Source of the DNA: Winogradskyella tangerina
Lineage (GTDB): Bacteria; Bacteroidota; Bacteroidia; Flavobacteriales; Flavobacteriaceae
Assembly (NCBI RefSeq): GCF_003260205.1
Contig: NZ_QERF01000002.1
Location: 124,001 to 188,000, forward strand
DNA: 64,000 nucleotides
Direction of reading: 5' to 3'
The position numbers were made by a program, and so were the translations under genes. Positions within the stretch are counted from its first letter, which is position 1; every line of letters starts with the position of its first letter. Below, one piece after another: positions 668 to 27,527 of the stretch. Below the pieces are notes generated by a model. The model had not been told where the DNA came from. It saw only the letters and a program-made list of their open reading frames with translations, and made no database searches.

Positions 668-1411
668 CTAATTGTTAATTATAAACTGTTCAAGTTGTTT
701 AAGTGAGATCTTATTCTCGTAAATAGCCTTTCCAATAATAACGCCTTCGCAGCCTAACTCTTGTAACTTAGGTAATTCCTCAAGTTTTGAAATTCCACCA
801 GAAGCAATTAGCTTCAAAGAGTCTTCGCTTTGCTCTAATTGACACAGCTTTAAAATCTTGTCGTACAAACTAAATGAAGGTCCTTGAAGCATACCATCTT
901 TTGAAATATCTGTGCATATCACGTATGATATTCCCTTAGACTGATAATCTTTAATAAAAGGAACAACCTCTAGGTCGCTTTCCTCCTGCCAGCCAGAAAT
1001 AGCGATCTTTTCATTAGTACAATCGGCACCCAAAATGATCTTTTCTGAGCCGTATTTTGAAATCCAATTTTGAAAAACTTCAGGGTTTTTAACAGCGATA
1101 CTTCCTCCGGTAATCTGATGTGCACCAGATTCGAAGGCTATTCTCAGATCGTCATCAGACTTAAGTCCACCACCAAAATCGATTTTCAAATTAGTTTTGG
1201 TAGCAATGGCATCTAACACCTTGTAATTAACAATATGACTGGCCTTCGCACCATCAAGGTCAACGACATGGAGGTACTGAATTCCGGCATCTTCAAAGGC
1301 TTTGGCCACTTCAACCGGGTTTTCGTTATAGACTTTTTTCGTGTCGTAATCGCCCTTGGTGAGACGAACACATTGTCCATTTATTATATCTATTGCAGGA
1401 ATGATTCTCAT
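668..1411 (-). CDS. hisA: Phosphoribosylformimino-5-aminoimidazole carboxamide ribotide isomerase HisA
   Basis: Cytosolic histidine-biosynthesis enzyme that isomerises ProFAR to PRFAR by an Amadori rearrangement. The 247-residue length fits the family's (beta/alpha)8 barrel. Visible motifs are the N-terminal [18 protein letters not shown] with catalytic Asp8, the phosphate-binding DFGGGLKS at about residue 80, the second catalytic Asp in [10 protein letters not shown], and the C-terminal phosphate loop IASGGIS with [10 protein letters not shown]. It lies 2 bp downstream of hisH and 2 bp upstream of hisF on the same strand, so the three are almost certainly co-transcribed. Confidence 0.97.
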
Positions 1412-1413
1412 TT

Positions 1414-1995
1414 CTATAATTCTAAAAAGTTTTGTAACAAACGCTCACCAACCTTACTACTCTTTTCAGGGTGAAACTGAACACCGAAAAAATTGTCATT
1501 TTCTAAAGCAGAAGCATATTCAATCTCGTAATCCGTTGTGGCAATGGCTTCCTCACAGGTTTCAGCATAATAACTATGCACTAAATACATATAATCACCT
1601 TCATTAATACCTTTAAACAAGTCAGACTTTAGATTTCTAACAATATTCCAGCCCATTTGTGGAACTTTGACTTGGTTTGAAAAACGTTTTACATCAGCAT
1701 CAAAAATGCCTAATCCTTTGGTATCGCCTTCTTCAGTATGTTTACACATCAATTGCATGCCTAAGCAAATACCAAGAACAGGTTGCTTTAATTCTGGAAT
1801 AATGGTATCTAATCCACTTTCCCTCAACTTTGCCATTGCTGAGCTAGCTTCACCAACACCAGGAAAAATAACCTTATCCGCTTTTATTAAAGCGTTTGGA
1901 TCATTGGTGAGAACCGCATTATATCCTAAGCGTTGAAAAGCAAATTGAATGCTTTTAATATTACCGGCACCGTAATTAACGATTTTTAAGTCCAT
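1414..1995 (-). CDS. hisH: Imidazole glycerol phosphate synthase glutaminase subunit HisH
   Basis: Class I glutamine amidotransferase that hydrolyses glutamine and channels ammonia to HisF. The 193-residue protein has the nucleophile elbow LGICLGMQL with Cys77 and the His/Glu pair in [10 protein letters not shown] near the C-terminus. The N-terminal [10 protein letters not shown] is typical of HisH. Its start shares one base with the hisB stop, and hisA follows after 2 bp, placing the glutaminase with its cyclase partner in one transcript. Confidence 0.97.
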
Positions 1996-3128
1996 TAGAG
2001 CATTCCTTTTGTTGATGGTAAAATCATCTTTTCTACATCTTGTTTAACCGCCATTTTAATTGCTTTGGCAAATGCCTTGAAAATAGCTTCGATCTTATGG
2101 TGCTCGTTAGTACCTTCAACCTTAATATTCAGATTACATTTAGCACCATCAGTAAACGACTTAAAAAAGTGGTAAAACATTTCGGTTGGCATTTTACCAA
2201 TCATTTCGCGCTTGAATTCAGCGTCCCAAACTAACCAGTTTCTACCTCCAAAATCAATTACTACCTGAGCTAGACAATCGTCCATTGGTAAACAGAAACC
2301 ATAGCGTTCAATACCTAATTTGTTACCTAATGTTTTTGCAAATACCTCACCTAGTGCTATTGCTGTATCTTCGATAGTATGATGTTCATCCACTTCGAGG
2401 TCACCATCTACTTTAATATTCAGATCCATTTGTCCATGGCGTGCAATTTGATCTAACATATGATCAAAAAATGCTATGCCTGTATCTATATTGCTCTTTC
2501 CTGTACCGTCTAAATTGAGGTCGATCTTGATTTTCGTTTCATTGGTGTTACGCTCAATAGAACCAACACGTTCTGTAGTTTTTAAAAATCGATAAATAAC
2601 CTCCCAATCGTTTGATTCTAATGCAATAAAGTCTTGTAATTCAGAATTACTAACAGTTACTTCATCGGTACCTAGATTGGTGTTGTCATTTATAAAAATA
2701 CCTTTTGCTCCTAAATTCTTGGCCAATTCAATATCTGTGAGTCGGTCTCCGATCACAAAAGAATTCGCCAAATCGTAATCCTCAGAGAAATACTTGGTTA
2801 ATAAGCCTGTGTTAGGTTTGCGCGTAGGCGCATTGTCCTTAGCAAAAGTTCTATCAATAAATTGTTCTTGAAACACTACTCCTTCTTGTTCGAAGGTTTT
2901 GATCACAAAATTATGTACTGGCCAGAACGTGTTTTCTGGGTAGACTTCGGTACCCAAGCCATCTTGATTAGTGATCATCACGATCTCAAAATTCAATTCT
3001 TTAGCTATTTTGCTCAAATATTGAAACACCTTTGGGTAGAATTCCAGTTTTTCAAATGAATCGATTTGTTCATCCGCTGGCTCTTTGATGAGGGTTCCGT
3101 CTCTGTCTATGAATAATACAGGTTTCAT
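1995..3128 (-). CDS. hisB: Bifunctional histidinol-phosphatase / imidazoleglycerol-phosphate dehydratase HisB
   Basis: Fusion enzyme catalysing two steps of histidine synthesis. Residues about 1-165 form a HAD-type phosphatase ([10 protein letters not shown] with the Asp8/Asp10 pair, then MITNQDG and [14 protein letters not shown]). Residues about 190-377 form the imidazoleglycerol-phosphate dehydratase with two manganese-binding repeats, [15 protein letters not shown] and [16 protein letters not shown]. The length of 377 is somewhat above the enterobacterial bifunctional HisB. It overlaps hisC by 4 bp upstream and touches hisH downstream, consistent with translational coupling. Confidence 0.97.
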
Positions 3129-4162
3129 GAGAGTTCTTTTAAAGTCTTAATTAGGTTTTTATTTTCAGCTTCAGTCCCAACTGTAAATCGCAGGCAATTT
3201 TCGCAAAGTGGCTGTGTGGTTCTGTTTCGTACCACAATACCCTTGTCAATCAATTCTGAATAGCGCTTAGAGGCATCATCAACGCGCACCAAAATGAAAT
3301 TTGCATCTGAGGAAAATACAGTTTCAATAAAGGAAATTGAATTCAAGGCTTTTTCTAATATCTGTCTTTGCTCTAATATTTTTGAAACTTCAAGAGTTAC
3401 TTCATCTGTTCGATTTAGTCGTTCTAGAGCCCTTTCTTGTGTCAGTTGATTAACATTATAAGGCGGTTTGATCTTATTCAAAATTGAAATAATAAATTCT
3501 GAAGCATAACAAACACCTAATCTTATCCCAGCTAAACCATAGGCTTTAGAAAGCGTTTGCGTAATTATAAGATTTGGAAATTCGTCTAAGCGACTCAACC
3601 AACTTTCCTGTTCAGAAAAATCAATATAAGCTTCGTCTATGACCACAATACCTCTAAAATTCTTAATCAGTTTTTCGACTTTCTGTGCTTCAAAACTATT
3701 GGCAGTTGGATTATTAGGTGAGCAAATAAACAATAACTTAGAATTGTCATTCTGAAGTGCTAGAACCTCCTCTACTTTAGGTTGAAAAGTTTTATCTAAT
3801 TCAACTTTTACAATTTCAACGGCATTGAGATCCGCTAAAACACTATACATTCCGTAGGTTGGCGGTAATGTAATGACATGGTCTAAATTAGGTTCACAGA
3901 AGGCCCTGAAAATAAGATCTAAAACTTCATCACTGCCATTACCCAGTAAGATTTGTGATGTTGGCACTTTCTTAATTTCGGAAAGTTTAGTTTTTACTTT
4001 GGTCTGCTGTGGATCTGGATAACGATTCACATTGGTTTGATAGGGGTTTTCATTAGCATCAATGAACACCATATCGGCCGATGCGTCCTTATACTCATCC
4101 CTCGCAGATGAATACGCTTTTATCGTTTTAATATTTTCTCTTAAAAGATTCTCTATATTCAT
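3125..4162 (-). CDS. hisC: Histidinol-phosphate aminotransferase HisC
   Basis: PLP-dependent class I/II aminotransferase converting imidazole acetol phosphate to histidinol phosphate. The sequence shows [37 protein letters not shown], and the PLP-lysine motif [16 protein letters not shown] at about residue 205, plus a C-terminal substrate Arg in LRFTVGT. At 345 residues it has normal HisC length. The ATG overlaps the hisD stop by 4 bp and the stop overlaps hisB by 4 bp. Confidence 0.97.
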
Positions 4163-5445
4163 GATTTCAAATCTTTTAAGCGCAATGTTACTGCATTTTT
4201 GTGTGCATGAAGACCTTCAGCTTCGGCCATAAGCTCTATGGCCGGACCAATTTTCTTTATGCCTTTTGGACTTAATTTTTGAAAGGTCATGCTCTTTTGA
4301 AAGCTATCTAAATTAACACCTGAATACGCCTTTGAATACCCATTGGTTGGCAAGGTATGGTTGGTGCCCGAAGCATAATCTCCGGCACTTTCAGGCGTGT
4401 AATTTCCTATAAACACTGAACCTGCATTTCCAATATTATCTACGAAATAATCGTCATCCTTTGTTGCAACTATGAAATGTTCTGGGCCATAAGCATCAAT
4501 GAGTTCTAAAGCAATTTCAAAATCTTCAACTACAATAATTCTTGAATTATTGATAGCGTCTGCGGCCATGCTTCGTCTCGGAAGTTCTTCTAATTGCCTA
4601 CCAACCGCATTACTTACGTTTGCAGCAAAATCTTTTGAAGTTGTTACTAGAATCACCTGACTATCTGAGCCATGTTCTGCCTGACTTAAAAGGTCTGAAG
4701 CCACATACTCGGCATTCGCAGTCTCATCTGCCATAACTAATAACTCACTAGGACCTGCAGGCATATCTATTGCCACACCGTATTTTGTTGCAATTTGTTT
4801 TGCTACGGTGACATACTGATTTCCTGGTCCGAAAATCTTATATACTTGTGGGATCGATGCTGTGCCAAATGTGAGTCCAGCAATAGCTTGTATACCTCCA
4901 ACTTTGCATATTTTGGTAACCCCACATAATTTAGCAGCGTATAATATTTCATCGGCTATTTTTCCTTCAGTATTTGGCGGAGAACATAGCACGATATCCT
5001 TGCATCCTGCAATCTTGGCTGGTATGGCCAGCATTAATACCGTTGAAAATAAAGGTGCAGTTCCGCCAGGAATATACAATCCAACTTTTTGAATTGGTCT
5101 CTTTTCTTGCCAGCATTTTACACCTTTCATGGTTTTTAAAAAAACCTTTTCAGTCTTCTGTGCCTCGTGGAACTTTTTAATATTGTTCTTTGCCAATTTT
5201 ATGGCTGACTTAAGTTCTTTTGAAACTCGATTTGAAGCGGCCTCAATTTCTTCGTCGGATACTGTGATATCAGTAAGATCGACTTTATCAAACTTTGACG
5301 TGTAGGTATTTACCGCTTCATTACCTTGACTCTCAACATCTGAAAATACCGTATTCACTATAGCTTCAATATCATCAACTGTTTTGGTTGGTCTTCTCAA
5401 TAGTTCTGACCAATCTTCTCGCTTAGGATTTTCTATTAGCTTCAT
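4159..5445 (-). CDS. hisD: Histidinol dehydrogenase HisD
   Basis: Zinc-dependent NAD enzyme oxidising histidinol to histidine in two steps. The 428-residue length and the motifs GLYIPGGTAPLFSTVLM, GNQYVTVAKQ, DMPAGPSELLVMAD, SQAEHGSDSQ (zinc and substrate ligands), YGPEHFIVAT and GTNHTLPTNGYSKA are diagnostic. It follows hisG after a single base and overlaps hisC by 4 bp. No broken motifs were seen. Confidence 0.98.
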   Translation of the reverse strand: MKLIENPKREDWSELLRRPTKTVDDIEAIVNTVFSDVESQGNEAVNTYTSKFDKVDLTDITVSDEEIEAASNRVSKELKSAIKLAKNNIKKFHEAQKTEKVFLKTMKGVKCWQEKRPIQKVGLYIPGGTAPLFSTVLMLAIPAKIAGCKDIVLCSPPNTEGKIADEILYAAKLCGVTKICKVGGIQAIAGLTFGTASIPQVYKIFGPGNQYVTVAKQIATKYGVAIDMPAGPSELLVMADETANAEYVASDLLSQAEHGSDSQVILVTTSKDFAANVSNAVGRQLEELPRRSMAADAINNSRIIVVEDFEIALELIDAYGPEHFIVATKDDDYFVDNIGNAGSVFIGNYTPESAGDYASGTNHTLPTNGYSKAYSGVNLDSFQKSMTFQKLSPKGIKKIGPAIELMAEAEGLHAHKNAVTLRLKDLKS

Positions 5446-5446
5446 A

Positions 5447-6304
5447 TTACAATACCATATTTTCGATTGGACACACTAAAATACCTTCGGCACCATTCGC
5501 TTTTAATTCATCTATCACATTCCAAAAATCATTTTTATTGATCACAGAGTGCAATGAACTCCAACCTTCTTTTGCTAGTGGCAAAATCGTAGGACTGTTC
5601 ATTCCTGGTAGAATGGCACAGATCTTATCGAGTTTGTCGTTAGGTGCATTTAAGAGTACATATTTATTTTCTCTACCTCGTAAAACGGATTTCAATCTAA
5701 ACTGAATCTTATCAATTAGAGCCTGATTGTCTTCAGAAATCTGAGGCGAAGTCGCTAAAACGGCTTCAGATTTAAGTAGCACTTCGATCTCTTTTAATCC
5801 ATTTTTGAATAAGGTACTTCCACTTGAAACAATATCACAGATACCATCGGCCAATCCTATGTTTGGCGCAATTTCAACAGATCCATTAATAATGTGAAGA
5901 TTTGCAGACACACCAGAATTTTTCAAAAACTGGTTTACGGTGTTTGGATAGGATGTAGCAATACGTTTTCCTTCAAGATCTTTCAAACTCTTAGCGCTCG
6001 AAGATTTAGGAACCGCAATAGATACACGACATTTTGAAAAGCCTAATTTTTCAACTACAGTAATGTCATGTCCTTTTTCAATTAGTACATTTTCGCCTAT
6101 TATGGCTGCATCTACAACACCATCGCGCAAGTATTGAGGTATATCACCATTTCGAAGATAAAATACTTCCAGAGGGAAATTTCGTGCTGAAGCTTTTAGT
6201 TGATCCTTTCCATTGTCGATAGAAATACCGATTTGTTTTAGTATCCTAAGCGAATCTTCATTTAATCGTCCAGATTTCTGAACTGCAATTTTTAAAGTAC
6301 TCAT
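5447..6304 (-). CDS. hisG: ATP phosphoribosyltransferase HisG (long form)
   Basis: First committed enzyme of histidine synthesis, joining ATP and PRPP; normally feedback-inhibited by histidine. I start it at the ATG at 6302-6304 (MSTLKIAVQKSGRL), giving 285 residues. The frame stays open to 6367, but the extra 21 residues come from the attenuator hairpin and are not HisG-like. Motifs are the N-terminal IAVQKSGRLNEDS, the PRPP-loop region DIVSSGSTLFKNGL, and a C-terminal regulatory domain (residues about 210-285, ending GAEGILVCPIENMVL), which marks the self-sufficient long form without HisZ. It is the first structural gene after the leader. Confidence 0.96.
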   Translation of the reverse strand: MSTLKIAVQKSGRLNEDSLRILKQIGISIDNGKDQLKASARNFPLEVFYLRNGDIPQYLRDGVVDAAIIGENVLIEKGHDITVVEKLGFSKCRVSIAVPKSSSAKSLKDLEGKRIATSYPNTVNQFLKNSGVSANLHIINGSVEIAPNIGLADGICDIVSSGSTLFKNGLKEIEVLLKSEAVLATSPQISEDNQALIDKIQFRLKSVLRGRENKYVLLNAPNDKLDKICAILPGMNSPTILPLAKEGWSSLHSVINKNDFWNVIDELKANGAEGILVCPIENMVL

Positions 6305-6342
6305 TCTAGTTTTAGTTAGTTGAGAATATGCATGAGTTCCAT

Positions 6343-6375
6343 AAAAAAACCCATTTGATATTCTCAAACGGGTTT
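6343..6375 (-). terminator. his operon attenuator (Rho-independent terminator before hisG)
   Basis: The minus-strand RNA has a 12-bp stem, AAACCCGUUUGA pairing with UCAAAUGGGUUU (one G-U pair), closed by a 5-nt loop and run out by a U tract (A tract at 6343-6349). It lies between the His-rich leader peptide (ends 6408) and hisG (starts 6304), so it would stop transcription before the structural genes unless an alternative fold forms. A clear antiterminator partner upstream was not found by eye. Confidence 0.75.
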
Positions 6376-6407
6376 AAAATTATATGTTGAAATTAATCAA
6401 TACATCT

Positions 6408-6461
6408 TCACCTCGCTTGAGCGATTACCTGAAAATGATGATGTAATTGATTGTTATTCAT
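6408..6461 (-). CDS. Putative his operon leader peptide with three consecutive His codons
   Basis: On the minus strand an ATG at 6459-6461 opens an 18-codon frame reading MNNNQLHHHFQVIAQAR followed by TGA at 6408-6410. The three adjacent CAT His codons (6435-6443) sit upstream of a strong terminator hairpin and hisG. This is the layout of ribosome-mediated attenuation in other his operons: when charged tRNA-His is scarce, a ribosome stalls on the His codons and favours read-through. The frame and codons are seen directly; the function is inferred from position and from known his leaders. Confidence 0.75.
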   Translation of the reverse strand: MNNNQLHHHFQVIAQAR

Positions 6462-6484
6462 GTCTTATTTTGATAAATAAAGTT

Positions 6485-6503
6485 TTGTAAAATTATTTTA
6501 CAA
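6485..6503. repeat. 19-bp near-perfect palindrome upstream of his leader
   Basis: TTGTAAAAT, one base, then ATTTTACAA: 9-bp arms about 24 bp before the leader ATG and just downstream of the SPFH gene stop. It may be a protein-binding site in the his promoter or a weak AU-only terminator of the upstream transcript. There is no U tract beyond the arm. Confidence 0.4.
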
Positions 6504-6525
6504 TTCCAAGTGTTTAACAAATTTT

Positions 6526-7341
6526 TTATTGGTTGCCTAAAATTATTGGCATTCCTGTGTCCCCAGAACCGATAATCACCACCTTACTATTAGGTGATTC
6601 AGCCAACTTATTAGTGGCTTCAATTCCTTTATCCTGAAGGATCTTATCTGTTAAAGACGCGCTTAAAATTTTGTTGGCATCTGCTTTACCTTGCGCCTCG
6701 ATTCGTTGACGTTCTGCTTCTTTTTGAGCTGTAACTAAACGGAATTCATACTCAAGAGACTCTTGCTCCTGCTTTAATTTACGTTCAATAGCATCTTTAA
6801 TTGTTGGTGGTAAGGTTACATCTCTAATTAAAACACTGTTTAATTGGATATATTGACTTTCAACAATTTTTTTGGTCTCTTCAAAAATTTCTGTTTGAAT
6901 AGCATCACGCTTGCTTGAATACAATTGCTCTGGTGTATAACGCCCTACAACGCTTCGCGCAGCAGAACGAATTGCAGGCTGTAAAACTCTACTAAGATAG
7001 TTTTCGCCTTTTTCATTGTGCAGCTTACCTAAGTTCTTTTCATCTGGCTCGTAAAGCACAGATGCATCAAGTTTGATATCAAGTCCATTTGATGATAGAA
7101 CAGACATTTTTTCTGGAATTTCTTGTTGACGAGTTTCATAATCGATCACTCTATTCCATGGTGCTATAATGTGAAAACCTGGACCAAGAGGTGGTTTCTC
7201 TGAGTCTACACCATCTTTTAAAGTTTCGTACAATACAGCCGCATGACCAGCATCTATAGTTACCGCTGATTTAAAAAGGATAATTAAAAAAATAATTATT
7301 CCTATTAAAATAGGTAGTCCTATTTTAGGTAATTTCTCCAT
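6526..7341 (-). CDS. SPFH/Band 7 (prohibitin-like) membrane protein
   Basis: The 271-residue protein has one N-terminal membrane helix (residues about 8-25, PILIGIIIFLIILF). An SPFH domain follows, from VTIDAGHAAVLYETLKDG to about residue 190, with the prohibitin-like segment PAIRSAARSVVGRYTPEQLYSSKRDAI. A Glu/Arg-rich coiled-coil region comes next (EQESLEYEFRLVTAQKEAERQRIEAQGKADANKI). Family members assemble into large ring-shaped membrane scaffolds. The gene follows the VWA gene by 11 bp and probably shares its transcript. Its partner proteins cannot be told from sequence. Confidence 0.9.
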   Translation of the reverse strand: MEKLPKIGLPILIGIIIFLIILFKSAVTIDAGHAAVLYETLKDGVDSEKPPLGPGFHIIAPWNRVIDYETRQQEIPEKMSVLSSNGLDIKLDASVLYEPDEKNLGKLHNEKGENYLSRVLQPAIRSAARSVVGRYTPEQLYSSKRDAIQTEIFEETKKIVESQYIQLNSVLIRDVTLPPTIKDAIERKLKQEQESLEYEFRLVTAQKEAERQRIEAQGKADANKILSASLTDKILQDKGIEATNKLAESPNSKVVIIGSGDTGMPIILGNQ

Positions 7342-7352
7342 GTTATTTTCTT

Positions 7353-9386
7353 TTAAATTAAACCGTTATATTTTCTAATAAACCATTCTGAAAATAGGCT
7401 TAGGGCTATGATTCCCAGCAAGTATTTCCAGTCGATCAAAGGTACGACATTTTTAGTGCTTTTTTGTATTGTAGCATAGCGATTATCGGTGATAAGATCA
7501 TTAATTAGATCTGAATAATTAGAACCGAAAAACGCTTTACCTGCACTGCTACTAGCTAGGGATTGTAATTTATCGAGGTCGGCATTTAAGAATTGCTGCT
7601 CAACATTATATTCTAAGATTTCAAAACTGCCTGACGCCGCGATAGATTCAGTGTTATGCTTAACAGTGAAATCGTACGATCCGGCTGAAATACCGCTAAG
7701 GTCAACTCGGTAATTTCCATTATTCAAAAGCAATGGTACCTCTCTAACACTGTCATCTTCCTTGTTTCTGATGATTATCGTTAATGCTGCAGAATCATCA
7801 AATTCAAAATTCTTATTGAAATACTGTGCCGAAATGATCACATCGTCATTACCGTTGTAAAACGACTTATAGTCTATATTTAATCGATTGCGCTTCTTAT
7901 TAGAACTTAAATACTGCACAAGCTTTCCCATAAAGTTATCGAAATCATTAAAGCTTTCCGTTTCTAAAAAAGACTGTGCTCGCCATCGCCATATGCCTTC
8001 TCCTGATAAAAAAGCGTGCTTGGAACTATTGATCTCAAAAGTTGAAAGCATCACCTGGTCTGTTAAAAACCCATTAACCGTTTTATAAAGAATAACATCA
8101 TTTGGTACTAAGAATTCTGTGTTGCCAAATTCTGATTTTAACGGAGGATAATCACTAAAATCGAGATTATCGATAATAAAAGTGCTATAATTTCGATTTA
8201 TGTTTGGCTGAAAGTCTTCAGTCTGATTTGTTATGACTTGATTGAAATATCCTTGCGTATTGTTGAGTAAACTCCAGTTTGTACTGGCTCCTGAAATCGT
8301 AAATGTATTTAGATTCTGCTTGCGAACCTCATTTAGAACCGAATTAAAGCTATTATTTGGCTGGTATAATATAACTAATTGATAATCATTAATTTTTGAT
8401 AAATACTCTTGCGGCTTCAATATTGAAACACTTCGCTGCTCGTTGCTCTCGATTGACTTTTTTATTGCTCCAAGATCGGGATGCAAAATATCTGAGACCA
8501 GAGCTATATTGGTTTTTTGATCGATGACCTCTACTCCAAAATTCTTCGAATTGTTTACCGTATTTTTTTCGTTGTTCAGTGGAGACAACTCAACACGATA
8601 AGTTTTAACACCAACACTATTAGCTGCTAAAGTTGTTGAAATGATCTCAGAGGTTTTAGAGGCGTTAAATTGAATTGGTTTTCTAAATATAACCGAATTA
8701 CCTGACCAAATTAAAAGTTCTGTATTAACGACTTCTGTGCCATTATAATTGGCGATAATTTCAACTGGAAATCTATTCTTTAGAAACACATAGCGATTTA
8801 CATTAAGCTGTTTGATATTCAAATCTGAATATACTGTTGAATCCCCAAGAATTATAGGATAAATCGGTTGTTTAATTGAGTTTGAAAGGAAACTGTAATC
8901 GGAACCATATGTTTGATTGCCGTCGGTTAACATTACTATTGGCGCCGTCGTATTGGCAAATACTTCACCAAGTTGTTTTAATACTTGTGAAATATTGGAT
9001 TGCCGATCGGTAAAATTCAAACTATCAAGGCTATTCACAGATCTGCCAAAACTGTAGGTTTGGATATCAAAGCGTTCATTTAAATCAGAATTATCGCGAA
9101 TGGCATTAAGAGCAGTATTGGCTGTGCTATCTTGCCCTAAGTATTTTACCGATTCAGAATTATCAACAGCTACGACGAGCGTTGGTTTTTTATCGTAGTA
9201 TGTATTTGATTCGAATTTTGGGTTTATAAGCAGCAGTAATATTCCAAAGATGGCTAAAGTCCGAAGAATGATTAAGCCATAGCGAAGCTTAGATTTTAGT
9301 TTCGATCTGTATATATACTGAAACAGCGCTAATGAAAGCGCTGCTATTCCAGCAATAATAATATATACGATCGTTTCTGTTTGCAT
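7353..9386 (-). CDS. Membrane-anchored von Willebrand factor A-like protein
   Basis: This 677-residue protein has two N-terminal membrane helices (about residues 5-22 and 36-56, LIILRTLAIFGILLLLI) and one near the C-terminus (LLGIIALSLFSEWFI). Between them lies a VWA-like domain with an intact MIDAS signature: DNSES (DxSxS) at about residue 75 and LTDG at about residue 155. The remaining periplasmic part looks like Ig/CARDB-type beta domains (SAGSYDFTVKH). The topology resembles large flavobacterial proteins found near BatA/BatB families, but no ATPase partner lies next to it. It sits 7 bp after fabG and 11 bp before the SPFH gene. Function unknown. Confidence 0.8.
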   Translation of the reverse strand: MQTETIVYIIIAGIAALSLALFQYIYRSKLKSKLRYGLIILRTLAIFGILLLLINPKFESNTYYDKKPTLVVAVDNSESVKYLGQDSTANTALNAIRDNSDLNERFDIQTYSFGRSVNSLDSLNFTDRQSNISQVLKQLGEVFANTTAPIVMLTDGNQTYGSDYSFLSNSIKQPIYPIILGDSTVYSDLNIKQLNVNRYVFLKNRFPVEIIANYNGTEVVNTELLIWSGNSVIFRKPIQFNASKTSEIISTTLAANSVGVKTYRVELSPLNNEKNTVNNSKNFGVEVIDQKTNIALVSDILHPDLGAIKKSIESNEQRSVSILKPQEYLSKINDYQLVILYQPNNSFNSVLNEVRKQNLNTFTISGASTNWSLLNNTQGYFNQVITNQTEDFQPNINRNYSTFIIDNLDFSDYPPLKSEFGNTEFLVPNDVILYKTVNGFLTDQVMLSTFEINSSKHAFLSGEGIWRWRAQSFLETESFNDFDNFMGKLVQYLSSNKKRNRLNIDYKSFYNGNDDVIISAQYFNKNFEFDDSAALTIIIRNKEDDSVREVPLLLNNGNYRVDLSGISAGSYDFTVKHNTESIAASGSFEILEYNVEQQFLNADLDKLQSLASSSAGKAFFGSNYSDLINDLITDNRYATIQKSTKNVVPLIDWKYLLGIIALSLFSEWFIRKYNGLI

Positions 9387-22276: not shown

Positions 22277-25200
22277 CTACTTAATAATTAGCTTCTTTGA
22301 AATATCTCTATTGATATCAACCATTTTTACATAGTAGATGCCAGGAACCAGATTACTCACATCGATTTGTCTTGTAGCAGATACGCTAAGATTTTCGTTA
22401 GATATCATATCTGAAAATATCAGCTTTCCGGTAATATCATATAGATAAATTCTACTCAAGGCCATTGTACCCTGAAGTCTTATATTAACTTGATCTGTCG
22501 CTGGATTAGGATATACCGTAAAATCGAAATCTAATTCTGATCCATCAGTTGGTCCTGGCGGATCATTATTTTCGTCACATTCATCATCAACAAATACTAT
22601 TACCGAATCCTCGTCGTAATCGAGTTCGTTGAATACGGTAACTGTATATTCGGTTGTTTCTTCAGGTGAAACCTCAATAGATTGTGTTGTTTCACCAGTA
22701 CTCCATAAATATTCGTCTCCACCTGTCGCAAAAAGTGTTACAAATTCACCTTCACAAATTTCTTTATCATCACCTGCAGAGGCAATTACCGCCGGGATTA
22801 CATTAACTGTTACTTGTTTCTCGTCGTAACAATCATTTATATAACCTCTTACCTCATAAGTAGTAGTTACTGTAGGACTAACAGCAATATTAGGTTGTGT
22901 TGCACCGTTGTTCCATAGGTAAGAATTAGCACCTTCAGCCGAAAGCGTTACGAAATCACCACTCATAATATCAACACTGTCACCATTTAATATAACTACG
23001 TTCGGATTAGGATCAACATACACTGTTACATCATCTGTATCCTGTTGACTACCCTGAGTAACAGTAACTGTATATGTACTTGTAGAGATTGGACTCACTG
23101 TAATACTCTGTGTGGTTGCACCAGTATTCCATAGATATGAATCTCCTGGCGTAGCAGTTAAAACGATCTCATAGTTATCATTCTCGCATACACGTTCATC
23201 TTCACCTGCAGAAACTACTAATACTTCTTCAACTGTAATGGTTACCTGAGCTTGCTCAATACAACTTCCATTTGAAGCTGTTACCGTATAAGTCGTAGTC
23301 ACCGTTGGACTCACAACGATACTTTCAGTAGTTTCTCCAGTATTCCACACAATCGATTCTGCTGCAATGGTGGTAGCTGTTAAAGTAATACTATCACCAT
23401 TAAGAATGGTTGTGTCTTCAGTTAAAGTCAGTTCTGGAGATGCTGTAACATCTACAATTACAGAATCTGAATCGGTATATCCGTATGCATCTTCTACGGT
23501 TACAGTATAAGTTGTCGTGTTTGATGGTGACACCTCTATTTGAGCGGTTGTTTCACCAGTATTCCAAAGGTAATTTACACCACCTGACGCTGTTAAAGTA
23601 ATTACTTCACCACTACATATAAATTCATCTGATCCTGCATCAGCAACAACTTCAGGAATGATGGTTACAACAACTTGTTCTATATCTGCACAACCACCAA
23701 CAGCTGTGGAAATAACTGTATATGTTGTGGTTGCTGTTGGAGTTACAGTTATTGATGATGTTGTTTCACCAGTGCTCCATAAATAGTTATCACCTCCAGT
23801 AGCTGTAAGAGTTACAGTTTCTCCCTCTAAGATCGCTACATCAGCGCTGACAGAAATATCAGGGGTTTCGTTTACTGTAACAGTTACACTATCAGTATCC
23901 GTATAACCATAGGCATCTTCTACTGTTACTGTGTATGTTGTAGTAACTGTTGGTGATACAATAATTTCTGCTGTTGTTTCACCGTTATCCCATGAGTAGG
24001 TGTTCCCACCGGTAGCTATCAAAGTAACATTCTCACCTGCACAAATAGTTACATCATTACCAGCATCGGCAACAACTTCAGGAATTACTGTTACTGTTAC
24101 TTCTTGTGTATTTGAACAACCATTAGCATTGGTCGATGTTACGGTATACGTTGTTGTTACTAAAGGCGAAACTGTAATGAAAGGTGTAGTCTCTCCTGTA
24201 CTCCACAAGAAATTATCGCTTCCAGAAACACCAAGCGTTGTTGAATTTCCTTCTACTAGAACAACATCGTCACTTACAATTATTGATGGTATCTCTTCTA
24301 CTATTACTGTAACGTTATCAGTACTTGAACAATTATTCGAAATGGCTTCAACAGTATAGATAGTATCTTCATTAGGACTTACTTGAATCGATTCGGTAGT
24401 TTCGCCATTACTCCACAAATACGTTGTACCACCACTTGCTGTTAGTGTAACTGTTTCTCCTTCACATATAGTTTGATCATCGCCAGCCTCTGCAACTGGA
24501 ATTGCATTTACAGTCACTATTACACTATCTTCATCAAAGTTACCTTCGTTGTCAAAAACTGTCACTGAATAGGTAGTAGTCGTTGTTGGACTTACTTCAA
24601 TCGAAGCTGTTGTTTCTCCAGTATCCCATAAAAAGTTTGGTCCACCAGAAGCAGTCAGTGTTATGGTATCGCCCTCGCAGATATCTTGGTCTGGACCAGC
24701 ATTCGCAACTGGTAAAGTGCTGAAAAAAAAAGTTAATGAAAAATTATCTACTGCTACAACATCGCCAGATGCGCCATTATTGCTATAATAGGTCACTGTA
24801 AAATTATAGGTGCCTTCTTCAACGGCATAGGGTTCAAAATCATTACCTACGTGTCCGTTTGGTAAACCTGCATAAATAGCACCGCTTTCAACCCAGATAC
24901 CACTCGTTGGGCCTGTCCAGATTACTTCAACACTTTCTACATCAGGGTTATTATCTCCACCTTGAGGAATACATCTAAAATTGATATTACTACTTTCATC
25001 CGCCAGATTGATTGAATCATCACCTACGATATCTTGAATAATAATATCCGTGTCTGCGTTGAAAAGTTGGTATGTTCCGAAGAAGGTATCAACAACAGTA
25101 ACTAAAGAACTGGCTGTAAATCCGCCATCATTTGCTGTGAATGTGATTGTAGCTTCGCCTTCATCAATCGCCGAAACTAAACCAGTTGCACTAACTACTG

Positions 25201-27073
25201 CAATAGATTCATCACTACTCGTCCAGATACCCGTTGTATCCGTTGTGTTAAGAGGAACAAAAGCTGTATTTAATTGGAAATTTTCTCCAAGATCTAAGGT
25301 TACAGCATTTGGAGTTAAACTTACTGATTCTAAAGGAATTACAACATTAGTTACTGTTATAAGTGCAGAATCACTTAATCCGCCATCGCTTGTTGTAAAT
25401 GTGATTGTAGCAGTTCCTTCGGCAACAGGTGTAACTAAACCAGTGTTGTCTACAGTTGCAATAGCTTCATCACTACTGCTCCATGTGCCAGTTTGAAAAG
25501 TTGCATTATTTGGAAGAACTTGAGCCGTTAATTGAACTGTATCAGGAATATTTATTGTTGCAGTTTCAGGAGTTACGTCAACACCAGCCACATCAATGAT
25601 CTGTGCTGAATTAAGATCGATCTCATTTAAGTATTCTTCAACACCTACATATCCACTTGGCCAAACATAACTTGATAGGTCATCATCAGGCTGAAACCCT
25701 CTAGAGATCTTCCAAACATCCGGCATTCCATCATTATTAGTATCAAAATCGGCAGGCCTTACATTTTCAGGGATAGTAGGATACGTTAAATTCGCCAAAG
25801 GTTCATAAAATGAACCATCGTAAGAATCATTGATGATCATATTTAAATGCTCGGTATCATAGCTATCTCGCATTATATTAATAGAACCATCAGCATTTAA
25901 TGTCTGAAAAGCACCTACATTTCCGTTGATAATAAGTTCGTTGTAATAATCCTCTGCAGAATTTACTGGGAAACTCGCTCCTAGAAGTGGAAATGGATTT
26001 GCCTGAAAAAAACTAGCAGGCACAGGGTCTCCAATAGAATACCCAGATAAATTCGTTCCTGCGAATAATGCCCACATATCACTATCATCAGCCTGTGGAA
26101 CTTCGCGCTGACCTACAATATAACTACCTGAACTATGTATAGTTCCTGTACTCGTGTTATTGACCTGTAATTGGTGTAGTCTGGCAATTGGCACATTATA
26201 ATTAGAAAACCAACCAGGTCTGTGTAGTCCTGCTGCAGATCCTTTATAATAATTATTTATGACGTTCGTCTGACCGTCATAAGACCCAATATCTCCTAGT
26301 CTAACGAGACGCTGTTTCCAGTTGTAAACCACATTACCAATAATATCTGCTCTTCCATCTCCTTTATAATTAGGGAATCTGTGGGAGATATTACTAAATA
26401 CGTTATTTATAAAGCTGAAATCACCTTCTTCACCTTTAATACCTATGATTGACCCGGTTTTACTATCCTGAAAGAAGCAATTCTGAATGGTAATATCATC
26501 CATTGTATTCACACTGGATGCAAAAGAAGCTGATTCATCATTTCCATGACTAAATGCACAATGATCTATAATGAAATCATTATTTTCCATCATCCAAACG
26601 GCATCCTGAGAATATGGCCCTCCTGGTAAGGCTGTATTAACTCTTCTAAAACTGATATAACGTATTATTACATTGTCTACATTTCTAAAACGAAATTCTG
26701 AAGTAAGTATCGTAATACCTCCTGGAGGTGCAGTCTGACCTGCGATAGTAATATTATCGAAATTTGGCCCATTAATTACATTGCTAAAACCACCTTGACC
26801 AGTAGCGTCAATAACTCCACTAACATCAAACACGATTATTCTTGGTCCTGGTGTTTGAATCGCTTCCTTTAATCCACCTGGTGCATCCCAGTCTAAAGTA
26901 GTAACATGGATTACCTGACCTCCTCTACCACCAGTTGAATAGGCTCCAGCACCTTTTGCTGATGGAAAGGCCAATTGTTGCGCACTAATTTGAAATGAAA
27001 CAAAGAGTGCTAAGAAAATATATAAAAAAGTATTTTTACTAAATAACTTAGTTTTAGGGTTTGGGGCTTTCAT
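22277..27073 (-). CDS. Secreted pectate-lyase-like protein with Ig-like repeats and T9SS sorting domain
   Basis: Start chosen at 27073 (MKAPNPK), 10 codons inside the longest frame, because the signal peptide (SKNTFLYIFLALFVSFQISAQ) fits it best. The order, numbered on the longest 1608-residue frame, is: right-handed beta-helix pectate-lyase-like domain at about 43-500 (AFPSAKGAGAYSTGGRGG, RIIVFDVSGVI, ITIAGQTAPPGGITI, RYISFRRVN); two Big_2-like Ig domains at about 505-675; one unclassified beta domain at about 675-795; ten ~70-residue Ig/PKD-like repeats (consensus SYLWSTGETT, SPTVTTTYTVTV) at about 796-1505; and a type A T9SS sorting domain at about 1520-1608 (VYPNPATDQVNI, YDITGKLI, GIYYVKM). 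It is probably cell-surface and polysaccharide-degrading or -binding; catalytic residues were not verified. Confidence 0.85.
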   Translation of the reverse strand: MKAPNPKTKLFSKNTFLYIFLALFVSFQISAQQLAFPSAKGAGAYSTGGRGGQVIHVTTLDWDAPGGLKEAIQTPGPRIIVFDVSGVIDATGQGGFSNVINGPNFDNITIAGQTAPPGGITILTSEFRFRNVDNVIIRYISFRRVNTALPGGPYSQDAVWMMENNDFIIDHCAFSHGNDESASFASSVNTMDDITIQNCFFQDSKTGSIIGIKGEEGDFSFINNVFSNISHRFPNYKGDGRADIIGNVVYNWKQRLVRLGDIGSYDGQTNVINNYYKGSAAGLHRPGWFSNYNVPIARLHQLQVNNTSTGTIHSSGSYIVGQREVPQADDSDMWALFAGTNLSGYSIGDPVPASFFQANPFPLLGASFPVNSAEDYYNELIINGNVGAFQTLNADGSINIMRDSYDTEHLNMIINDSYDGSFYEPLANLTYPTIPENVRPADFDTNNDGMPDVWKISRGFQPDDDLSSYVWPSGYVGVEEYLNEIDLNSAQIIDVAGVDVTPETATINIPDTVQLTAQVLPNNATFQTGTWSSSDEAIATVDNTGLVTPVAEGTATITFTTSDGGLSDSALITVTNVVIPLESVSLTPNAVTLDLGENFQLNTAFVPLNTTDTTGIWTSSDESIAVVSATGLVSAIDEGEATITFTANDGGFTASSLVTVVDTFFGTYQLFNADTDIIIQDIVGDDSINLADESSNINFRCIPQGGDNNPDVESVEVIWTGPTSGIWVESGAIYAGLPNGHVGNDFEPYAVEEGTYNFTVTYYSNNGASGDVVAVDNFSLTFFFSTLPVANAGPDQDICEGDTITLTASGGPNFLWDTGETTASIEVSPTTTTTYSVTVFDNEGNFDEDSVIVTVNAIPVAEAGDDQTICEGETVTLTASGGTTYLWSNGETTESIQVSPNEDTIYTVEAISNNCSSTDNVTVIVEEIPSIIVSDDVVLVEGNSTTLGVSGSDNFLWSTGETTPFITVSPLVTTTYTVTSTNANGCSNTQEVTVTVIPEVVADAGNDVTICAGENVTLIATGGNTYSWDNGETTAEIIVSPTVTTTYTVTVEDAYGYTDTDSVTVTVNETPDISVSADVAILEGETVTLTATGGDNYLWSTGETTSSITVTPTATTTYTVISTAVGGCADIEQVVVTIIPEVVADAGSDEFICSGEVITLTASGGVNYLWNTGETTAQIEVSPSNTTTYTVTVEDAYGYTDSDSVIVDVTASPELTLTEDTTILNGDSITLTATTIAAESIVWNTGETTESIVVSPTVTTTYTVTASNGSCIEQAQVTITVEEVLVVSAGEDERVCENDNYEIVLTATPGDSYLWNTGATTQSITVSPISTSTYTVTVTQGSQQDTDDVTVYVDPNPNVVILNGDSVDIMSGDFVTLSAEGANSYLWNNGATQPNIAVSPTVTTTYEVRGYINDCYDEKQVTVNVIPAVIASAGDDKEICEGEFVTLFATGGDEYLWSTGETTQSIEVSPEETTEYTVTVFNELDYDEDSVIVFVDDECDENNDPPGPTDGSELDFDFTVYPNPATDQVNIRLQGTMALSRIYLYDITGKLIFSDMISNENLSVSATRQIDVSNLVPGIYYVKMVDINRDISKKLIIK
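22588..24718 (-). repeat. Ten tandem ~70-residue Ig/PKD-like coding repeats
   Basis: Ten units lie within the pectate-lyase-like protein, each with a [Y/F/V]LW[S/N/D][T/N]GETT-type core and a TTTYTVT strand. From the second unit on, two subtypes alternate: one has Cys in an [I/V]C[E/A/S]G motif near the unit start, the other has ILEG- or ILNG-type sequence there and a Cys late in the unit (for example NGCSNTQ, GGCADIE, NDCYDEK). Confidence 0.8.
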
Positions 27074-27527
27074 AAAATCTTTCTTGCAATTTTTTTGCAA
27101 CACAAGGCGAATCTAAAAAATAAATTTTCCAAATATTGCTAAAATACCTAATTATTCGATAAAATGCATTTATTTGTAAGTATATATTTACCTTAATGTA
27201 TTATTAATCAAAAAACAACCTATATACGTACAAAAACTCCGATTAGACGTCGTATTTTAGAAAAAATGACCATTCATCGATATAAAGTGCAAAAATATCT
27301 ATGAAAAAGCGCTATTTGAAAAAATTAAGGAAGCTTTTATCAACAAGTTATCATTACAGAAAACCATTACAAGAATAAAATTACCTTCTTCTAATCTTAA
27401 AGGAAAAAACAGTCATAATGGTATAAAAGAAATATTAGCAGTGTTTTGTGGAAGAATATTATTAAAATTGCATCCATGAATAGAATGCCAAATATATATT
27501 CAATCTAAATTTTTTCAAACGGAAATA
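27074..27527. other. Intergenic region, 454 bp, between pectate-lyase-like gene and polysaccharide locus
   Basis: AT-rich divergent region. It holds the upstream sequences of both genes. No exact TAnnTTTG box is placed convincingly for either. A plus-strand frame without any ATG stays open at 27270-27479 (69 codons ending in VFCGRILLKLHP) and may be a gene remnant. A 25-codon ATG frame at 27301-27378 overlaps it and shows no recognisable domain. Confidence 0.4.

Follow-up and report, generated by a model that had tools for sequence, protein, structure and literature searches.

A putative his operon attenuator with a histidine-rich leader upstream of hisG in Winogradskyella tangerina and other Bacteroidia

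Organisation of the his locus

The window, that is the whole stretch of 64,000 nucleotides of W. tangerina DNA that was analysed, carries on its minus strand, in the order of reading, a short leader frame, a predicted terminator hairpin and the genes hisGDCBHA (Table 1). The first-pass annotation of this DNA had described a 17-residue leader with three adjacent CAT codons, a 12-bp hairpin with a T tract and hisG, and both its coordinates and its list of parts proved correct when the minus strand was read again; the antiterminator strand (6421-6414) and a segment termed D (6329-6320) were missing from that list. The hairpin, AAACCCGTTTGA/GAATA/TCAAATGGGTTT, extends from 6375 to 6347 and has 12 bp with one G.U pair, with seven T at 6349-6343. 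The predicted fold of 6470-6335 has an energy of -35.2 kcal/mol, compared with -19.3 kcal/mol for shuffled sequences (z = -5.3), and none of 200 shuffles equalled it.

The next gene upstream on the same strand (6526-7341, minus strand) ends 64 nt before the leader ATG; it gave no NCBIfam match at 1e-10 and is, by its appearance, presumably a prohibitin/SPFH-type protein. Elsewhere in the window, a frame of 1608 aa at 22277-27103 on the minus strand has repeated Ig-like blocks in its translation, and its C-terminal end is taken by us to be a secretion sorting domain.

Table 1 Features of the his locus in the window, with positions counted from its first letter
Feature	Position	Strand	Evidence
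hisD, hisC, hisB, hisH, hisA, close-packed or overlapping	668..5445	(-)	NCBIfam models above cut-off for each gene
hisG (ATP phosphoribosyltransferase), first gene of the operon	5447..6304	(-)	TIGR00070 and TIGR03455 above cut-off; ATG at 6304
Segment D, ATATTCTCAA, ending 15 nt before the hisG ATG	6320..6329	(-)	10 Watson-Crick pairs with 6367-6358; shuffle p 0.005
Segment C (3' arm, 6358-6347) and U tract (6349-6343)	6343..6358	(-)	Sequence and fold
Terminator loop, with B the partner of D	6359..6363	(-)	Pairing, covariation
Segment B, 5' arm of terminator	6364..6375	(-)	Sequence and fold
Leader helix, 3' strand, pairing with about 6452-6434	6395..6412	(-)	Predicted fold
Leader peptide ORF, MNNNQLHHHFQVIAQAR, A-rich start context	6408..6461	(-)	ATG 6461-6459, 17 codons, TGA 6410-6408
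Segment A, CTCAAGCG, candidate antiterminator strand within the last leader codons	6414..6421	(-)	8 bp with 6370-6363
Putative His sensor, three tandem CAT codons	6435..6443	(-)	Read in the leader ORF
Promoter-like element, TTGG 6509-6506 and TTTA 6481-6478	6478..6509	(-)	Genus loci by eye

Promoter-like element and start of leader translation

Most loci of the genus have TTGG- or TTAGG-...TTTG just upstream of the leader ATG, and the window has TTTA where most of its relatives have TTTG. Among 200 leaders, 189 have TTTG within 55 nt upstream of the leader start, compared with 28 % of mononucleotide shuffles. This looser test was adopted after a strict TAnnTTTG promoter box was found in only 93 of the 200 leaders and was absent in the window. 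In 28 of the 93 boxed leaders (e.g. L172, L193, L198) no more than 4-9 nt separate the end of the box from the start codon of the leader, so that the RNA from which these 28 ORFs are translated may be leaderless or nearly so. An excerpt of PMC6847099 gives 4-5 nt between the -7 element and the transcription start in F. johnsoniae, a rule by which transcription in the window would start at about 6474 and leave a 5' UTR of about 12 nt. According to the same excerpt, Shine-Dalgarno sequences are lacking, A is preferred at -3 and A-rich motifs are favoured, and pairing is reduced between about -20 and +20.

Conservation of the leader

Flavobacteriaceae were sampled at approximately one genome per genus (199 genomes, with HisG in 166), and the upstream DNA was read for 150 hisG genes, the window's included. 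A leader was defined as a frame of 8-40 codons with at least three His within five codons. Such a frame was present in 144 of the 150 regions, and one same-family genome from the class search brings the family figure to 145/151. The His cluster occurred in 0.9 % of dinucleotide-shuffled Flavobacteriaceae upstream regions (1-2 % across shuffle sets) and on none of the 151 reverse strands; the same cluster criterion applied to leucine, the most frequent of the other residues in this AT-rich DNA, gave 82/151. Of the six regions of the family that lacked a leader, L052 is cut off by the end of its contig; inspection by eye showed a two-His frame and a terminator in each of the other five.

Alignment of related upstream regions had been proposed as a check in the first-pass annotation, and at the level of sequence it bore the annotation out, since the His run and the hairpin are conserved in relatives, with the leader in 29/29 regions examined in the window's genus (where hisG was found in 37 other genomes), in the 145/151 of the family, and in 55/62 regions of other Bacteroidia families. 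Four more Bacteroidia loci came from the phylum search and are outside the last count; all four have the leader. Outside the class Bacteroidia it was found in 6 of 23 regions examined, from three sampled families (f68, f75 and f76). The peptides are alike in many genera of Flavobacteriaceae (M.FIQ.HHHHFH..QA), and beyond that family the leaders keep little except the His run and its position.

A hairpin that serves only to terminate the upstream gene, next to a frame that is His-rich by chance, would suit the end of a same-strand gene at 6526, but this explanation is extremely improbable in view of the His cluster in 145/151 regions against 1 % of shuffles, the promoter-like element that separates that gene from the leader, and the covariation of A with B described below. 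A T-box, or a repressor of the HisR type, is equally improbable as the regulator of hisG here: both control his genes in other phyla according to the part of PMC9413887 consulted, but the 13 Rfam matches obtained for 5500-7500 at E up to 10 include no T-box, and the T-box model had no match at its gathering score in 20 further loci, which gave no Rfam gathering match of any kind.

Terminator and candidate antiterminator

A permissive finder, run without shuffle control, placed an intrinsic terminator between leader and hisG for 145/145 leaders of the family and 48/55 of other families, and a few of these 48 are doubtful (e.g. L173, L208, L212). Many other families have terminators of unrelated sequence, e.g. 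GGCTTACC, often AAGGCTTACC...GGTAAGCCTT. The search gave no terminator for the His leaders L210, L211 and L213 (f39), L189 and L195 (f16), L154 (f13) and L176 (f5). Those of L154 and L176 were possibly missed, because close relatives carry terminators, and the leaders of f39 and f16 are perhaps under translational or Rho-based control. A small hairpin at the leader stop codon was seen by eye in L195, L212 and some others.

In the window, A (6421-6414) can form 8 bp with the upper part of the terminator 5' arm, that is with CGTTTGAG of B (6370-6363). When partners were swapped between loci, the A:B score of the own partner exceeded the swap mean in 140/145 family and 39/48 other-family loci. 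The mean score in the family (n = 145) was 18.4 with the own partner and 12.1 with partners from other families; for the other families (n = 48) it was 16.5 and 13.2 with swapped partners, only 26 of these 48 loci lying above the 90th percentile of swaps. Against shuffles, A:B pairing was individually significant (p<=0.05) in 111/145 family and 24/55 other-family leaders, leaving 34/145 and 31/55 that were not, seven of the 31 being leaders without a terminator by the search. Where the terminator is unrelated, A is often altered to match, the leader then ending in GGTAAGTC or similar.

The leader might instead encode a functional His-rich small protein, for example a metal-binding one, with attenuation secondary or absent. 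The similarity of the peptide across many Flavobacteriaceae genera would agree with this, but A is mostly encoded there by the conserved C-terminal ...QA[RSKN], so that the end of the peptide looks conserved because the RNA strand is. The leader ends of other families differ, often along with the terminator, and outside Flavobacteriaceae it is the His run and position that are kept and little else; a small protein is accordingly very unlikely to be the main function.

The position of A within the leader was recorded for the Flavobacteriaceae loci (n = 145). A starts 12-14 nt past the His run in 126 of them and ends 3 nt (one codon) before the stop in 112, a spacing by which A should be accessible when the ribosome stalls and covered when it finishes. 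Many leaders of the family have one further His after the run (e.g. HHHHFH), and a stall there would cover part of A. As far as pairing and spacing can tell, a predicted antiterminator that is exclusive with the terminator and placed for control by the ribosome is present and covaries.

Outside the class, the leader ends of L273-L275 (f68), e.g. GCCGGG in L273, look by eye complementary to a CCCCGG-type terminator, and these loci possibly follow the same A:B logic in another sequence type. Long His-rich frames precede hisG in L280 and L281 (f75) and in L282 (f76); a terminator was looked for by eye in the two f75 loci and none was seen.

Folding of the leader with and without a ribosome

The ribosome footprint was assumed to end 9 nt (truncated folds) or 11 nt (full-length folds) past the A-site codon. 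Estimated mean energies are -12.7 kcal/mol for the A:B duplex and -16.9 kcal/mol for the B:C hairpin, and the window values are -15.0 and -14.7 kcal/mol. At equilibrium, full leaders averaged over 144 loci favoured B:C in every ribosome state, with a mean p(A:B) of 0.04 under stalling; the model therefore needs co-transcriptional capture of B by A, and the switch was tested on truncated transcripts, in which the RNA ends before C is made. In the truncated folds, a ribosome placed on either the first or the last codon of the His run gave a p(A:B) of 0.95-0.96. The value of 0 for a ribosome at the stop codon is built into the model, as the assumed footprint covers A. Without a ribosome, mean p(A:B) was 0.50 and exceeded 0.5 in 71/144 loci (window 0.36). 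The full-length fold of the window with a stalled ribosome gave A:B 0.38, B:C 0.19 and B:D 0.68, and otherwise B:C 0.94-0.99.

Segment D upstream of hisG

About half of the Flavobacteriaceae, with the window among them, have between terminator and hisG a segment D that is the complement of the upper arm of B, the terminator loop and about two more bases. By the shuffle test, D was significant at p<=0.05 in 81/135 family loci and at p<=0.01 in 66/135. In the swap control, the own pairing was above 95 % of swaps in 47/135 loci, a weaker result that is expected because the arm is nearly constant. These first tests were biased, because the register had been chosen by pairing, and in a repeat D was placed by the arm part only, the six loop positions being unused for placing. 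The strict arm anchor was found in 122/175 loci of the family and genus together (97 in the 151 family loci), and at the loop positions these gave 562 pairs, compared with a permutation mean of 412 (sd 11, maximum of 2000 permutations 449). Counting each combination of loop and D once, which removes relatedness only partly, gave 337 pairs against 254.5 (sd 9.2, maximum of 5000 permutations 290). The window's own D fails the strict arm anchor and passes the shuffle test.

At least five of the six loop positions pair with D in 66/151 family loci. Of the 77 loci in which five or six loop positions pair, 52 have a D whose 3' end is 13-17 nt upstream of the hisG AUG, and in the rest this distance reaches up to 48 nt. 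In L013, L056 and L083 short repeat-like hairpins (e.g. CCCGCTTTCTCGGG, CCTGCATTCGCAGG) lie between D and the hisG start, and D is 33-47 nt upstream and still pairs with B.

D could also be a half-site of a DNA operator, or a by-product of sequence turnover, with no role as an RNA strand. Several points agree with such an origin: a few tens of bases separate B from D, which together make an inverted repeat; roughly half of the family lacks D; in the 77 better-paired loci the distance between D and hisG is anything from 13 to 48 nt; and only the 47 loci stood out in the first swap test. Against it, a D placed by its arm still matches its own loop, in all loci (562 against 412) and in unique combinations (337 against 254.5). 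At one position G.U pairs are frequent (48/122), as would suit RNA, though a C-to-T change alone could yield them. On balance an origin in DNA or by turnover is unlikely, and it is the strongest of the competing explanations.

D does not appear to be a general feature of Bacteroidota attenuators, judged by the trp leaders and by the his leaders of other families. The trp test set comprised 30 loci from 43 genomes with a match, L313 having been excluded beforehand as its terminator differs, and in the remaining 29 leaders D-type pairing was not beyond chance (3/29 at p<=0.05, none at p<=0.01). Among the 48 other-family his leaders with a terminator, 36 were long enough to test, and D was found in three of them (L160, L167, L184), all with a GTTTGAG/GTCTGAG-type terminator.

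B:D is predicted to be stronger than A:B in 58/64 loci and on average weaker than B:C (-15.3 vs -16.6), so that in cis D would pair mainly where A has already kept B from C. D is transcribed after the termination decision and so cannot decide the fate of that polymerase. A simple anti-start element was considered and rejected, complementarity to the hisG start having p<=0.05 in only 28/125 loci, namely 25/80 with D and 3/45 without it; the window value, p 0.13, is not significant. In loci with D whose hisG starts ATGAGT (n = 64) the mean z of this complementarity was 1.67 (se 0.21), compared with -0.04 for other starts (n = 24), and being confined to ATGAGT loci it is not the general function of D and is at best a lineage-specific addition.

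D borders the region of translation initiation, which points to a control of hisG translation; the covariation agrees just as well with an action in trans, in which the terminated leader RNA would pair with D. A real role of either kind, translational or in trans, is possible rather than probable.

Proposed attenuation mechanism

The window element is very probably a ribosome-mediated transcription attenuator of the his operon, a reading that was put forward in the first-pass annotation and is now supported by the conservation of the leader, the predicted antiterminator, exclusive with the terminator and covarying, and its spacing. We infer stalling, termination and a response to histidine as follows. 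Transcription would start just upstream of the leader ORF. When His-tRNA is scarce, the first ribosome would stall on the CAT run, A would stay free beyond its footprint and would pair with B as soon as B emerges, B:C would be blocked, and RNA polymerase would read into hisGDCBHA. When His-tRNA is plentiful, the ribosome would reach the stop codon and cover A, B:C would form, and transcription would end at the U tract. In an untranslated leader, the leader helix might perhaps enclose A and favour termination.

A two-level switch can tentatively be proposed on top of this, in which B has three partners, A for antitermination, C for termination, and D, which lies shortly before the hisG start. 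In starvation transcripts, A would take B first, and D could then gain a toehold on the free loop and keep B from pairing with C; in leaky transcripts, B would remain in B:C and leave D free. The pairing state of D would then set the translation of hisG, in some genera through pairing of D with the start codon itself. Alternatively, terminated leader RNA would pair with D in trans and repress residual hisG mRNA. The Bacillus subtilis trp leader and the S. meliloti rnTrpL are precedents for leaders that act both at termination and on translation, or in trans; they are TRAP-dependent or have other targets, and a like role of D is only hypothetical.

Comparison with known systems

The Rfam His_leader model (RF00514) scored 22.8 bits in the window against a gathering score of 49 and had no match in the 20 further loci. 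With the enterobacterial his leader that it describes, the window element shares a short ORF with tandem His codons and alternative antiterminator and terminator structures upstream of hisG (see also the excerpt of PMC9413887), and it differs in having A inside the last leader codons, no Shine-Dalgarno-type start to be expected, and the extra D in many loci. By mechanism it thus appears from its sequence to be an attenuator of the enterobacterial his kind, and it falls outside the Rfam family His_leader.

The nearest described relative in the phylum is the Bacteroid-trp RNA (RF01692), which is named in the consulted parts of PMC2864571 and PMC6414381. It has a match in 43/60 family genomes, the window's own genome included, and was absent from the 13 matches with E up to 10 in 5500-7500. 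Like the his leader, it has a peptide rich in the cognate residue followed by a terminator (30 loci by eye) and a similar promoter-like TATATTTG upstream; it differs in having Trp instead of His codons and in lacking D-type pairing beyond chance.

For F. psychrophilum, the available part of PMC9723704 reports a structured 5' element of hisG that is conserved in other Flavobacteriaceae genera and has no Rfam match, and mentions clues to leader-peptide attenuation of amino-acid operons in the transcriptome work. This is very probably the same element as that of the window, and the core idea is to that extent anticipated there. As described in that part, the element comes without a leader sequence, an antiterminator, D or a phylum-wide distribution, and the covarying segment D is what is new here beyond the published element. 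Some histidine attenuators of Firmicutes share three to five consecutive His codons, a terminator and an antiterminator (PMC9413887, in part); they belong to a different phylum, and the word start 'bacteroid' is absent from the main text of that paper. Leader-peptide-like sORFs in Bacteroides 5' UTRs are reported in an excerpt of PMC7366714 in which his is not named, and for the his genes of this superphylum an excerpt of PMC8305728 describes attenuation for enterobacteria only. A literature search over titles and the starts of abstracts, with subscription journals mostly outside its coverage, found no other paper that describes a his attenuator in Bacteroidota.

Significance

A model of this leader would fill a gap in Rfam, in which the trp leader of Bacteroidota has a model and the his leader went unrecognised in the window and 20 further loci. 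The unrelated terminator sequences that keep the same logic offer a natural series for the study of early ribosome loading on leaders in Bacteroidota, and D, should it prove to have a function, would add a second layer to a leader-peptide attenuator. The elements described here would place the textbook enterobacterial mode of tRNA-sensing by leader translation widely in a phylum that is reported, in the excerpt of PMC6847099, to be without Shine-Dalgarno sequences.
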